This document shows, one piece after another, positions 28,789 through 32,214 of a DNA stretch of 64,000 bases. The stretch is from assembly GCF_008107695.1 (NCBI RefSeq), contig NZ_VIRG01000070.1, forward strand, positions 1,054,001 through 1,118,000, given 5' to 3'. A program made the translations under genes and the position numbers. How positions within the stretch are numbered: the first letter of the stretch is position 1; each line of letters starts with the position of its first letter. Source of the DNA: Stappia sp. BW2. Lineage in GTDB: Bacteria; Pseudomonadota; Alphaproteobacteria; Rhizobiales; Stappiaceae. Below the pieces are notes generated by a model that worked only from the letters and a program-made list of their open reading frames with translations, was not told the DNA's origin and did not search any database.

Positions 28789-29469
28789 ATGTATCTGATC
28801 ATCTTCGACGTCGACGGCACGCTGGTCGACAGTCAGCAAACCATTTTGCAGGGGCTGCAAGTCGGCTTCGAAGCCGCGGGTCTGCCCATGCCGGACCGCG
28901 AAACGGCTTTGTCGATTGTCGGACGATCGCTGGACGAAGCCTTTCTGGATCTCGTCGGACCTGAACACAGCGACAAGATCCCGGTCATGTCAGAGGCATA
29001 CAGGCAGGCGAAGTGGTCTCGCAGGCGGGAAGGGCTGGACCTTGATCCGCTTTATCCGGGCGCACGCGAAGCTATCGACAGACTGTCTCTGCGCGATGAC
29101 GTCCTGCTTGGAATTGCCACCGGCAAGGCGATGCGCGGCGTCAAGCATATGATGGATACCCAGGATCTGCATGGTCGCTTCGTGACAATTCAGACTGCGG
29201 ACACATCACCTTCCAAACCGCATCCGGATATGGTGCTGCGGGCGATGGCGGAGACGGGGGCGGACAAATCCCGCACACTCATGATTGGTGATACGGGGTT
29301 TGACATGGCGATGGCCAAGGCTGCCGGGACGCATGCTCTGGGTGTCTCCTGGGGCTATCATGACCACGATCGGCTGACGGCCGATGGTGCGGACAGGATC
29401 GTTCAGTCCTATGCCGAGCTGGATAATGCGCTTGGCGAACTTCTGGATTTCGACAAGGAAACAATGTGA
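28789..29469 (+). CDS. HAD-family phosphatase (Gph/PGP-like)
   Basis: HAD hydrolase, 226 residues, resembling phosphoglycolate phosphatase. Motif I DVDGTLVD, motif II region GIATGK, motif III Lys in SPSKPHPDM, and motif IV MIGDTGFDMAMA are all present; a helical C1 cap sits between motifs I and II. ATG 28789 has AGG six bases upstream and is preferred over ATG 28783. Its stop overlaps the ATP12 start, so the two are coupled, an arrangement known in related genomes. Substrate not certain. Confidence 0.88.
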   Translation: MYLIIFDVDGTLVDSQQTILQGLQVGFEAAGLPMPDRETALSIVGRSLDEAFLDLVGPEHSDKIPVMSEAYRQAKWSRRREGLDLDPLYPGAREAIDRLSLRDDVLLGIATGKAMRGVKHMMDTQDLHGRFVTIQTADTSPSKPHPDMVLRAMAETGADKSRTLMIGDTGFDMAMAKAAGTHALGVSWGYHDHDRLTADGADRIVQSYAELDNALGELLDFDKETM

Positions 29470-30242
29470 TGCGCGATTTTCTTGAAACTTCGCAGGAAGA
29501 TGAATCCAAGGATCCGGAACTGCGGGCACGCGAGCTTTCGCGCCGTGAATTGCCGAAGCGTTTCTACACGGAAGCAACACATGTTGCCACAGACGGCGGA
29601 TTTGCAATTCACCTGGACGGCAGACCCGTCAAGACCCCGGGCAAGGCGGCCTTGCTGCTGCCGAGCGAAGTTCTGGCGAAAGCTGTCGCAGCCGAGTGGC
29701 AGGCGCAGGAGAAGGAAATCAACCCGGCCAGCATGCCGCTGACGCGGATTTCCAATTCGGCGCTCGATGCAGTGAGTGTCCGGTTCGATGAAGTGGCTGA
29801 CGACATTACCCGGTTTGCCGGTAACGATGCGCTGTGTTACCGGGCCGACCATCCTCAGAGCCTGGTCGAAAGCCAAAGGCGCTTGTGGGACCCTGTGGTG
29901 GATTGGGCAGGAGGGCTGCTTGGCGGTCGTTTCGTTCTGATCGAAGGCGTCATTCACGCCGCCCAGCCTGACCCGTTGCTGGCCGCTTACCGGGCCAGGC
30001 TTTCAAACCTGACCCCGATGCGCCTCGCCGCGCTCCACACGATCACCAGTTTGACCGGATCAGCCCTTCTGGCGCTCAGCCTCCTGGAAGACTACCTCGA
30101 CGCTGATGCGGCCTGGACAGCCGCGCATGTGGAAGAAGACTTCAACATCGAACGCTGGGGCGAAGACTTGGAAGCTGCCCTCGTCAGAGCGTACAAACGC
30201 AAGGAATTCGACGCGGCGGTGCTGATCGTTAGGGAAGGGTGA
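29469..30242 (+). CDS. ATP12-family chaperone for F1-ATPase assembly
   Basis: ATP12 homologue, 257 residues, required in mitochondria and in alphaproteobacteria such as Paracoccus for assembly of the F1 alpha subunit. Typical N-terminal block LPKRFYTEATHVATDGGF, then LDGRPVKTPGKAALLLP and AAEWQAQEKEINPASMPLTR, and a C-terminal helical half. ATG 29469 overlaps the HAD stop by one base (TGATG). The family is characteristic of alphaproteobacteria and supports the taxonomic placement. Confidence 0.93.
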   Translation: MRDFLETSQEDESKDPELRARELSRRELPKRFYTEATHVATDGGFAIHLDGRPVKTPGKAALLLPSEVLAKAVAAEWQAQEKEINPASMPLTRISNSALDAVSVRFDEVADDITRFAGNDALCYRADHPQSLVESQRRLWDPVVDWAGGLLGGRFVLIEGVIHAAQPDPLLAAYRARLSNLTPMRLAALHTITSLTGSALLALSLLEDYLDADAAWTAAHVEEDFNIERWGEDLEAALVRAYKRKEFDAAVLIVREG

Positions 30243-30305
30243 GTTCTGACTTTTCGCAAAAGGAAGCAACGTATACTTTGTGCGGAAAGTACGACTGAAC
30301 GCGGT

Positions 30306-30340
30306 GGCTACTAGGCCCCTGCCCTCGCAGGGGCGGCTCG
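30306..30340. repeat. Left terminal inverted repeat of the GIY-YIG unit
   Basis: This palindromic sequence (core GGCCCCTGCC, then GCAGGGGCGGC) forms a hairpin by itself (CCCCTGC/GCAGGGG). Its reverse complement recurs at 30688-30722 with about 28 of 32 core positions identical. The GIY-YIG stop codon begins two bases inside this repeat. Together the repeats define a 417-base unit. Confidence 0.75.
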
Positions 30341-30342
30341 GG

Positions 30343-30645
30343 TCAGGTTGCAGCTAGGCCGGGGAAGAGATCGATCCAGTCAGGATTTGCTTCTTCGATC
30401 ATCCTGATTTTCCAGGCCCGCTTCCAGCGTTTGATATTGCGCTCCCGCTGATATGCTTCTTCTGGACGTTCGAAGAGTTCGAAATAAACCAAGCGGTTGA
30501 CGGTGTATGCCTTGGTGAAACTGCTGCCGAGGCCGTTTCGGTGTTCCCAAGTCCTCCTGAGCAGGTCGTTGGTCATGCCGACGTACAGAGTTCCACCGGT
30601 CTTGCTGGCGAGAATGTATACGGCAAACGGGTTCCTCTGCCTCAT
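30343..30645 (-). CDS. GIY-YIG nuclease family protein (UvrC/URI-like single domain)
   Basis: Single-domain GIY-YIG protein, 100 residues. The family core is VYILASKTGGTLYVGMTNDL at residues 9-28 (the GIY and YIG elements), then Arg residues in LLRRTWEHRNG and the Glu in the ERNIKRWKRAWK region. ATG 30645 follows AGGAAG; the frame continues upstream through the right repeat but that extension is not family-like. Such solo genes occur in many copies in alphaproteobacterial genomes. Here it is enclosed by inverted palindromes, which suggests mobility. Confidence 0.9.
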   Translation of the reverse strand: MRQRNPFAVYILASKTGGTLYVGMTNDLLRRTWEHRNGLGSSFTKAYTVNRLVYFELFERPEEAYQRERNIKRWKRAWKIRMIEEANPDWIDLFPGLAAT

Positions 30646-30686
30646 CGGGCTTCCTAAGCTTGTTTTCAGAACCACATTTTCCCGAA

Positions 30687-30722
30687 GTGGCCGCCCCTGC
30701 GGAGGCAGGGGCCCAGTAACCA
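30687..30722. repeat. Right terminal inverted repeat of the GIY-YIG unit
   Basis: Mirror copy of the left repeat (core GCCGCCCCTGC, GGAG, GCAGGGGCCC), also a hairpin by itself. It lies 41 bases upstream of the GIY-YIG start and 67 bases beyond the end of mgtE, so it could additionally act as a transcription stop between the two. No clear target-site duplication is visible outside the repeats. Confidence 0.75.
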
Positions 30723-30789
30723 TCATGGTCAGAGACTTGGGAGGCCGCTTGAGCTATGCAATTCGGTGTGCTTTTCCAAGGAAGAGACT

Positions 30790-32214
30790 TCACCCCAGAT
30801 AGAACGTTGTTGCCATCAGGAAGAAGATGAGAACGCCGAGGACGTCGTTGGATGAGGTGATAAAGACGCCTATGGCCATGGCGGGGTCGATGCCGATCTT
30901 GTCGAGAACGATGGGCACGGTAGCGCCGACCATGGCGGCGAGGGTGGTGACGCAGAGCAGTGACAGCGAAGTGGCAAGCGCGAGATGAAGGGGGGCTTCC
31001 AGCGGTACGACCAGAGACGCCGCCAGTACAAGACAGCCGAGGATGGTGCCGGCGATTGCGCCGTTGAAGAGAGCCGCCATGAGTTCCTTCAGCAGGCGAT
31101 AGAAGATGTCGCCCGACCAGAGGGCGCCGGTCGCTATGCCTTGAACAGCCACAGCAGATGCCTGCAGGCCGGCATTTCCCGCCATGGACATGGTGACGGG
31201 AATGAATGCGGCCAGAATGGCGGCTTCGGCGAGCTGATCCTCGTAAGAACCGACCACTGTTGCTGCGACGCTGGCGCCTCCAAGACCGGCCAGCAGCCAC
31301 GGCAGGCGGCGGCGGACGATGCGCAATACCGTGTCATCCGACCGGGATTCTGCCGAAACGCCGCTCATCAGCAGCATGTCCTCATTCGCCTCGTCCGAGG
31401 CAATGCGGGTCAGTTGCTTCGGCGTGATCCGGCCGATCAGGTGGCCTTCGCCACTGACCACCGGCACCGTGCGCATATCGCGTTTTCGGGCGATCCGCAG
31501 CACTTCTTCCTGATCGGTGTCGGTGGAAACCGCCAGCACGTCCCGGTTCATGAAGCTCGACAAGGGGGCATCTGCCGGGGCAAGCAGAAGTTTGCCCACT
31601 TCCACGGTGCCGGTCAGCTTGCCTTCGGCATCGGTCACATAAACGGTAAAGACCTTGCGGATACGGCTGGCTTCCGCACGCATCTGCGTGACAGCCTCGC
31701 CCGCGGTGCAGGTTTCGGGCAGGGCAACGAACTTGCGCGCCATGACGCGGCCGGCCGTGTCGTCTGCGTAGGAACCGCGCGTGGCAATGTCTTCCACGTC
31801 GGGCAGGCGTGCGATCAGTTCGTCCGCGACATCGTCTGGAAATTCGTTGAGAATTTCGGTCGCGTCTTCCGGGTCGAGGCCGGCGAGAATGTCGCGGAAC
31901 TGCTCCAGCGTGGATTCTTCCATCAGGATGGACCGGAATTCCGGGCGCAGCTCGGCAATCACCTTGATGGATGGGTTGGCCGGCAGCCATTGAAACAGTT
32001 TGCGGGCATGTTTCAACCGCATCCGCGTCAGCAGTTGCATGACGTCGACCGGGTCCCAGCGTTTGAGCAGCTCAACCAGTTGCGTGCGCTGCCCCGCCTT
32101 GATCATCTCGCGGACGGCCTTCTGCGCATCGTCGTTGACTTCCAGCGGTTCGTTGGCCGGCTCCCTGGTCCATGCGGTTGGGGCAAGCTCTGCGACATCG
32201 CTGGAATTGCTCAT
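30790..32214 (-). CDS. mgtE: Magnesium transporter MgtE, copy 1
   Basis: MgtE, 474 residues, a Mg2+-gated channel of the inner membrane. The MgtE N domain covers about residues 45-150, a CBS pair about 155-280, and five membrane helices about 305-474. The pore region has IPVTMSMAGNAGLQASAVAV, and the last helices include DPAMAIGVFITSSNDVLGV. It lies 77 bases after the Anbu gene on the same strand and could be read through from that operon. A second, diverged mgtE is at 53400. Confidence 0.95.
   Translation of the reverse strand: MSNSSDVAELAPTAWTREPANEPLEVNDDAQKAVREMIKAGQRTQLVELLKRWDPVDVMQLLTRMRLKHARKLFQWLPANPSIKVIAELRPEFRSILMEESTLEQFRDILAGLDPEDATEILNEFPDDVADELIARLPDVEDIATRGSYADDTAGRVMARKFVALPETCTAGEAVTQMRAEASRIRKVFTVYVTDAEGKLTGTVEVGKLLLAPADAPLSSFMNRDVLAVSTDTDQEEVLRIARKRDMRTVPVVSGEGHLIGRITPKQLTRIASDEANEDMLLMSGVSAESRSDDTVLRIVRRRLPWLLAGLGGASVAATVVGSYEDQLAEAAILAAFIPVTMSMAGNAGLQASAVAVQGIATGALWSGDIFYRLLKELMAALFNGAIAGTILGCLVLAASLVVPLEAPLHLALATSLSLLCVTTLAAMVGATVPIVLDKIGIDPAMAIGVFITSSNDVLGVLIFFLMATTFYLG

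Follow-up and report, generated by a model that had tools for sequence, protein, structure and literature searches.

Among the described systems closest to the locus reported here are the REP/RAYT (TnpA-REP) elements, whose REPtrons and REPINs combine a REP-flanked gene, a repeat subtype matched to that gene, and dispersed dimers that carry no gene. These traits recur in the units described below, but both the enzyme and the repeat differ; the RAYT gene encodes an HUH Y1 transposase and its REPs bear a GTAG tag, whereas our units encode a GIY-YIG protein of ~100 aa and have a CGTC-class tag. Pairs of MITEs and their parent transposons are alike in that short, non-autonomous copies keep both ends of a gene-bearing unit, and they differ in that we found no transposase domain here and target-site duplications are not readable.

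REPs of the CGTC class were described by Di Nocera, De Gregorio and Rocco 2013 (PMC3733652). That article gives them a CGTC tag (or TGTC or CCTC), stems of 8-9 bp that begin with AT, loops of 4-5 nt, and a tail that fits CCA, and presents them as common in alphaproteobacteria and found also in Neisseria, where the CGTCATTCCCGC-type repeats are of the kind named dRS3, in Rickettsia, and in other phyla. Its authors conclude that the class lacks a dedicated transposase and call its associations with transposase genes only fortuitous; the term GIY-YIG has 0 occurrences in the text. Measured against this description, the repeats flanking most of the GIY-YIG genes examined fit the class (GTC tag, 8-9 bp stem, 4-5 nt loop, and CC(A) tail), and they come, as the CGTC REPs do, mostly from alphaproteobacteria and from the Neisseria dRS3 kind. 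The main text of RepRanger 2025 (PMC12306157) likewise contains no occurrence of GIY. Among the papers listed in literature searches that covered few subscription journals, none linked GIY-YIG with REPs or CGTC repeats.

A further point of comparison is Ssn. As reportedly described by Chenal et al. in Nature Communications in 2025, Ssn proteins are GIY-YIG nucleases that cut ssDNA at cognate sequences; they are said to have been found first in Neisseria meningitidis, with a repeat in hundreds of copies, and they reportedly affect natural transformation and have thousands of homologs. They reportedly share with our units a solo GIY-YIG protein matched to a many-copy repeat of the same genome, including a Neisseria repeat, and differ in that a REP-bounded mobile unit, the derivation of REPINs, and the question of the CGTC REPs are not known to be part of that work. 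If Ssn is as reported, the protein studied here is probably an Ssn-type enzyme, and the matching of nuclease to repeat is unlikely to be new; what may be new is the anatomy of the mobile unit and its link to CGTC REPs and REPINs. The preliminary description of the locus had put it forward as a candidate for an undescribed system, which is only partly right given that CGTC REPs are known and Ssn was reportedly published in 2025, but its central comparison, a GIY-YIG counterpart of REP/RAYT, is supported.

Here, we analyze this locus within a 64-kb window (the whole stretch of DNA under study). Our reading, which draws on sequence comparison and to which we give a probability of roughly 60%, is that the locus would be a small mobile unit bounded by REPs, with a solo GIY-YIG nuclease in the role that RAYT has for GTAG REPs. 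We hold at even odds the broader proposal that solo GIY-YIG genes and their cognate CGTC-class REPs form widespread, self-spreading units of ~350-430 bp, with the multi-copy CGTC REPINs as non-autonomous derivatives. We regard GIY-YIG proteins as the best candidate for the missing enzyme partner of the CGTC REPs.

A GIY-YIG gene between two inverted hairpins

The locus had been described as two facing arms, matching at about 28 of 32 bases, that enclose a 100-residue GIY-YIG gene with no other content, and this is exactly what we find. The left REP-like arm (30306..30340) has a CTAGTA tail pointing outward, the hairpin GCCCCTGC-CCTC-GCAGGGGC at 30315-30334, and GGC facing the gene; in the right arm (30687..30722), which is inverted, GCC faces the gene, GCCCCTGC-GGAG-GCAGGGGC lies at 30693-30712, and a CCAGTAA tail points outward. 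Each arm is a perfect 8-bp stem with a 4-nt loop (GCCCCTGC-N4-GCAGGGGC). A gapless comparison of the two arms gives 28/32 identical bases, and a repeat search lengthens the inverted match to 43 nt, with 81% identity (30295-30337 and 30690-30732). As ssDNA, the right arm folds better than its shuffles (z -3.1), while the left arm is weakly better (z -1.4), with 22 of 200 shuffles equally good. Comparison with other alleles suggests that the whole unit spans about 424 bp (30303..30726), with outer edges that read inward GGTGGCTACTAG and ATGGTTACTGG and resemble those of the G023 allele.

The sole content between the arms is a solo GIY-YIG nuclease gene on the minus strand (30343..30645; 100 aa). 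Its left neighbor is an ATP12-like gene on the plus strand (29466..30242), which served as the marker for finding the site in relatives, and its right neighbor is an mgtE-like gene on the minus strand (30790..32214); both names are provisional, and both genes point toward the unit and are thus convergent. The only Pfam match of the window protein is PF01541 GIY-YIG (E 1.3e-16), and no transposase domain was found. RAYT membership was ruled out, since PF01541 is the sole match and there is no HUH Y1; no GTAG tag adjoins the window stems, the left arm reading CTAG-TAGCC only on its tail side. No NCBIfam model scored above its cutoff for this protein. Neither PHROGs nor PADLOC yielded a match, and we rejected a phage or defense gene identity on this account. 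In an alignment of 20 relatives, Y10, Y21, G23, R31, H35, and E68 are invariant, and these positions are catalytic in GIY-YIG nucleases; a solo GIY-YIG protein with intact catalytic residues is also what Ssn is reported to be. The sequence-closest solved chains, PDB 1zg2 (E 2e-6) and 1ywl (E 3e-4), are UPF0213 GIY-YIG proteins, ~29-36% identical to the window protein by count on the alignments, and we know of no repeat association for UPF0213 proteins. A relative from Neisseria gonorrhoeae is 49% identical. The GIY-YIG frame remains open upstream across the right REP to an ATG at 30726, which would give 127 aa, and an N-terminal extension encoded by the right REP is possible.

As G+C-rich hairpins between convergent genes, the arms could in principle be ordinary terminators, or hairpins that arose by chance around a small gene of the usual kind, but the probability of this is practically negligible. 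Neither hairpin is followed by a T-run, and Rfam at gathering scores found no match in 29400-31800. The arms form the only inverted twin-hairpin pair within 1 kb of each other in the 64-kb window, and 30 first-order Markov random windows contained 0 such pairs; on the random windows and the Rfam result, we rejected intrinsic terminators and chance for the window arms. The sequence with its tail also recurs in six other genomes, and the tagged hairpins at 64/72 loci, together with the ParE and ATP12 controls described below, contradict this explanation.

In the source genome (6.44 Mb), CCCCTGC-N2-6-GCAGGGG occurs in 3 places, the two arms and one orphan, and this repeat variety has hardly spread in its own genome. 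That genome contains five solo GIY-YIG genes and one 662-residue frame with the same domain, which is taken to be uvrC. By sequence reading, the other four solo genes adjoin palindromic repeats of at least three kinds, three of the genes being flanked on both sides and one (L005) on one side. For the gene at C17:780769, the adjacent repeat has 85 genome copies (reversed control, 0), which include 19 neighboring plus/minus pairs, 18 of them with a 25-27 bp spacer, and eleven minus/plus pairs spaced 41-124 bp apart. Three copies lie within 200 bp of the domain, and two of these are arranged plus-gene-minus. A gene-bearing unit and gene-less dimers of equal polarity thus coexist in one genome. 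The remaining three solo genes share a second pattern, which lies no more than 420 bp from the domain in each case and has 26 copies (control, 0). With respect to the many-copy repeat reported for Ssn, the source genome offers 85 and 26 copies for the repeats of its other GIY-YIG genes and 3 places for the window type; the window pair is a diverged member of the family, nearly solitary in its source genome.

Tagged hairpins beside GIY-YIG genes and their class

The pattern of repeat-flanked solo GIY-YIG genes is not local to the window; it occurs across the genus and in relatives in other phyla, as the preliminary description had suggested checking. At the first 29 genus GIY-YIG loci, most hairpins read GTC-AT-stem-loop-stem-AT-CCA, which is the CGTC REP class. 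A set of 80 named loci holds 167 tagged hairpins within 300 bp. In 152 of them a CC tail adjoins the stem; the stem measures 8-9 bp in 145 and the loop 4-5 nt in 161. The window arms fit CGTC REPs in stem length (8 bp) and loop length (4 nt), and the right tail (CCAGTAA) fits CCA, the left (CTAGTA) being a variant. They differ from the class in having GGC/GCC where a CGTC, TGTC, or CCTC tag would stand, as does the G023 allele, and in stems that start with GC, not AT. Among the nearest GIY-YIG relatives elsewhere (61-65% identical), the hairpins of L115, L119, and L120 combine a 4-nt loop with a ATCCCTGC or ATCCCAGC stem, and for this reason the window pair looks like a diverged CGTC-class branch. 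The window copy would belong, as a diverged member, to the branch with an 8-bp stem, a 4-nt loop, and outward tails, and its own genome retains few dispersed partners of it, if any.

We measured the association in 40 stretches (38 of them 20 kb long), which were hand-picked from the listed matches, mostly at places where we had no locus yet. Around their 45 GIY-YIG genes, the 26 kb of sequence within 300 bp held 59 tagged hairpins and the 612 kb at distances of 2-10 kb held 8, a 174-fold difference in density, or ~50-fold per non-coding kb by a rough ORF mask. Three of the stretches (L119, L127, and L131) were known to be REP-flanked before they were chosen, and dropping them leaves 54 versus 8, or 158-fold. 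Comparison of left and right flanks revealed common direct repeats at 32/45 genes and inverted ones at 28/45, with some common flank repeat at 36/45. At shifted positions, the corresponding control values were 3/177 direct and 2/177 inverted; between flanks of different loci they were 19/200 and 18/200, higher because loci share repeats.

Within the genus, where 31/34 GIY-YIG loci and 29/30 ParE-toxin loci could be counted, a tagged hairpin lay within 300 bp at 20/31 GIY-YIG loci (both sides, 16) versus 4/29 ParE loci (both sides, 0). ATP12 loci that have no GIY-YIG gene gave 3/26 within 300 bp of the ATP12 match (both sides, 0), and the one uvrC locus tested had no tagged hairpin within 300 bp. 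The 80 named loci are the best matches listed to one branch and not a random sample; many are metagenome bins, and they are mostly proteobacterial, with some Planctomycetota, Chloroflexota, and others. In this set, 64 of 72 testable loci had a tagged hairpin within 300 bp, 38 of them on both sides, and hairpin density fell about 60-fold, from 5.94/kb at 0-150 bp to 0.10/kb at 600-1500 bp. A plasmid collection contributed 14 GIY-YIG genes (in records that include Neisseria gonorrhoeae, Aeromonas, Photobacterium, Azospirillum, rhizobia, Sphingobium, Planktothrix, and Spirosoma), 10 of which have a strict tagged hairpin beside them; the remainder have looser or CCTC-tagged repeats, with Spirosoma marginal. 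Among these, the N. gonorrhoeae relative sits among CGTCATTCCCGC-type repeats. From 30 diverse alphaproteobacterial loci, again best-scoring matches and not a random sample, 27 were used (three were cut by contig ends); 8/27 have a strict tagged hairpin, 14/27 have any flank repeat, and 13/27 have none at the cutoff.

Not every gene of the genus carries the canonical repeat; for 25/77 genus GIY-YIG genes, the 400 bp on either side hold no perfect hairpin with a GTC tag. The GIY-YIG genes at L004, L139, L155, and L159 are flanked by repeats of other kinds (CTCATCCTGAGG..., CGACAAGCTCAG...), and some of them belong to a more distant branch (L139 and L004, the latter with FYILRCSNGSYYTG); these flanks suggest that gene–repeat pairing reaches past the GTC-tagged REPs. 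Planktothrix agardhii plasmid p1 (L182) carries a GIY-YIG gene that has GTCATTCTGAG-type repeats and is flanked by a gene for an MmeI-type restriction enzyme on one side and by DISARM drmA on the other.

At the level of genomes, we surveyed 241 alphaproteobacteria, in which a single GIY-YIG hit is normally uvrC. Two or more GIY-YIG hits were present in 43 of the 52 genomes with a strict CGTC REP versus 79 of the 189 without one (Fisher P about 1e-7, uncorrected for relatedness). No second hit was found in 9/52 genomes with a strict REP, including 5 of the 28 with five or more; these REP-rich genomes indicate that REPs can exist without a resident gene. Two of them, G269 (75 REPs) and G133 (28), have one GIY-YIG hit each, presumably uvrC, and hold orphan REP populations whose enzyme may have been lost or may be of a different type. 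Such genomes, and the intergenic position of REPs, would suit a reading in which GIY-YIG genes are passengers beside REPs that spread independently of them. We consider this very improbable; ParE-toxin genes have no such enrichment, passengers would not match the repeat subtype, and the published description of CGTC REPs calls their associations with transposase genes only fortuitous (PMC3733652).

Subtype pairing, unit ends, and dimers

We compared 77 GIY-YIG genes from 40 genus genomes in 2687 cross-genome pairs at different sites, leaving out 182 same-site pairs, excluding the gene ends, and counting a flank repeat as shared at a score of 40 or more. At low protein identity, flank repeats were seldom shared (5% of pairs below 40%, 4% at 40-50%, 8% at 50-60%, and 27% at 60-70%), and at high identity they nearly always were (90% at 70-80%, n = 199; 95% above 80%, n = 44). 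The rank correlation was 0.41. Because the pairs are not independent, we permuted genes within genomes, and 0 of 1000 permutations reached 0.41 (mean 0.14, maximum 0.30). Such matching of subfamily and repeat is hard to explain by genes merely living near repeats. A GIY-YIG gene is matched to its own REP subtype as a REPtron gene is, and the likeness is one of how the two work, not of membership.

The ends of the unit were read from all 67 pairs of genes that share 78% protein identity or more and occupy different sites; the two genes of a pair always came from different genomes. In 23 of these pairs (15 genes), the shared block both starts and stops at repeat tags and measures 342-396 bp; examples are L030/L101 and L015/L106, whose blocks open with GTCATCCCC and close with GGGGATGAC. 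The block ends at a tag on one end only in 26/67 pairs and on neither side in 17/67, 14 of which stop at the gene itself on both sides; one pair has no shared block. Tags facing outward on both sides are the commonest two-sided order (18/77 genus genes and 20/72 testable loci), other orders occur, and in the window branch (L120, the window, and G023) it is the tails that point outward. REP dimers among the matches listed (e.g., G085, G056, and G171) are tag-outward as well. Because dimers and units have like outer ends, a REPIN looks like a unit with a short spacer in place of the gene. At four places (L101, with genes at G042:C1:4564425 and 4565000; L106 in G037; L111 in G013; and L114/L038 in G044), two GIY-YIG genes lie within ~750 bp of each other with REPs between them, apparently duplicated via direct repeat copies.

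We propose that the nuclease would recognize its own REP as a hairpin in ssDNA, either on the lagging strand during replication or in incoming DNA, and would nick at or near the REP tag. Host repair and ligation, not a strand transfer of the transposase type, might then place copies of the unit or of a REPIN in further intergenic sites, and REPINs would be non-autonomous, MITE-like derivatives of the unit. GIY-YIG enzymes hydrolyze DNA and leave ligatable ends. We know of no GIY-YIG enzyme that performs strand transfer, and to our knowledge, the covalent intermediate of Y1 transposases does not occur in them; hence, the route must differ from that of the RAYTs. If the proposal is true, it would represent a second, independent enzyme route to REP spread, using a hydrolytic nuclease and not a transposase, it would answer what moves the CGTC REPs, and REP-type elements would have arisen at least twice with unrelated enzymes. 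With a partner gene matched to the repeat, the spread of CGTC REPs becomes testable using one gene and one repeat, and work on single-stranded DNA would gain useful tools from nucleases that each match one of many hairpins.

Cognate pairing is also what a purely Ssn-like enzyme would need. Such a GIY-YIG nuclease would cut ssDNA at its cognate repeats and thereby shape recombination or transformation with no transposition, and the repeats and the gene would spread solely through ordinary recombination and horizontal transfer. The N. meningitidis Ssn is reported to be an enzyme of this sort, and the N. gonorrhoeae relative, 49% identical to the window protein, sits among repeats of the dRS3 kind. 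We regard this as a serious alternative, if an unlikely one; taken alone, it gives no account of why homology stops at the outer tags in 23/67 different-site pairs, or of the nearly constant 25-27 bp spacing of dimers in the polarity of the unit.

Filled and empty sites

The preliminary description had asked for orphan palindromes and for empty sites in relatives, and both turned up. Allowing one mismatch, the window-type repeat occurs at 19 places in 7/45 genomes, 15 of which do not flank a GIY-YIG gene; the six genomes other than the source include two, G007 and G032, that have a solo copy at the window site with the gene absent. At that site, where 30 of 44 ATP12 matches were read, the gene is present in 4/30 and absent in 26/30, and 23 of the 26 have 229 bp or less between the two neighbor genes. 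Of the four filled sites, those of G000 and G023 carry the window-type repeat; those of G002 and G018 have a GIY-YIG protein of 56-58% identity and a repeat of the GGTCCCCGC type. G024 and G035 carry a GGTCCCCGC-type hairpin at the site without the gene. The closest filled relative, G002 (ATP12 92% identical), thus holds a different GIY/REP pair, and G008 (90%) is empty. The filled allele common to G000 and G023 may reflect vertical inheritance instead of insertion. G023 has a third direct repeat copy after the unit, and the right flank of the solo copy in G032 resembles the flank of that third copy; the G032 repeat is as expected if the gene and one repeat had been lost by recombination, or if they had never inserted.

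Two further sites lie outside the genus. In Azospirillum lipoferum 4B, a REP dimer, the gene, and another REP dimer lie between sufB and sufC (plasmid AZO_p3, L174), and three relatives that are 95.7-96.5% identical do not have the unit. Of these, A. ramasamyi and A. oryzae have neither the gene nor REPs between sufB and sufC, with no REP seen in the gap, and Azospirillum B510, also without the gene and those REPs, has an unrelated self-complementary stretch at the site. In Sphingobium, the arrangement fnrL-unit-regulator is represented by seven records with the whole stretch and four without its middle, from which we read the sequences of two of the seven filled and all four empty stretches. 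Among the empty ones, TYG64 has a single palindrome composed of the outer half of each flanking REP, TYG74 has a near copy of it, TYG65 has another hairpin, and TYG72 has no REP seen in the gap. The palindrome of TYG64 and TYG74 (L191 and L190, compared with L183, pTomTYG43a) is likely a deletion scar. In all of these comparisons, the flanks of the empty sites are too diverged for a target-site duplication to be read.

These sites bear on a further possibility, namely that REPs spread by other means and the GIY-YIG gene homes into them as its cutting site. GIY-YIG is a homing-endonuclease fold, the genes do adjoin REPs, and some gene-less sites retain a hairpin (a palindrome of the flanking-REP type in TYG64 and TYG74, another hairpin in TYG65, and the unrelated self-complementary stretch in Azospirillum B510). 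However, filled sites hold two complete, opposed REPs and not one REP split in two, the gaps of A. ramasamyi, A. oryzae, and Sphingobium TYG72 contain no REP, and a tagged hairpin is found at only 3/26 gene-less window-site loci (within 300 bp of the ATP12 match). We therefore consider a homing hitchhiker improbable. The preliminary description's idea of a minimal mobile unit, in contrast, draws support from the repeats elsewhere, the orphans, and the empty sites, although the window copy itself is diverged and almost single-copy; we infer the mobility of the GIY-YIG/REP unit from these sequence comparisons.

One pair of genomes, G005 and G021, which are 96.8% identical at the ATP12 locus, was considered as a clean empty site; G021 lacks the gene, but the pair was rejected since the neighborhood differs past the breakpoint. 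At L119 and L170, the loci compared for this pair, the two sequences diverge completely from the end of the shared REP, and different small genes adjoin it.
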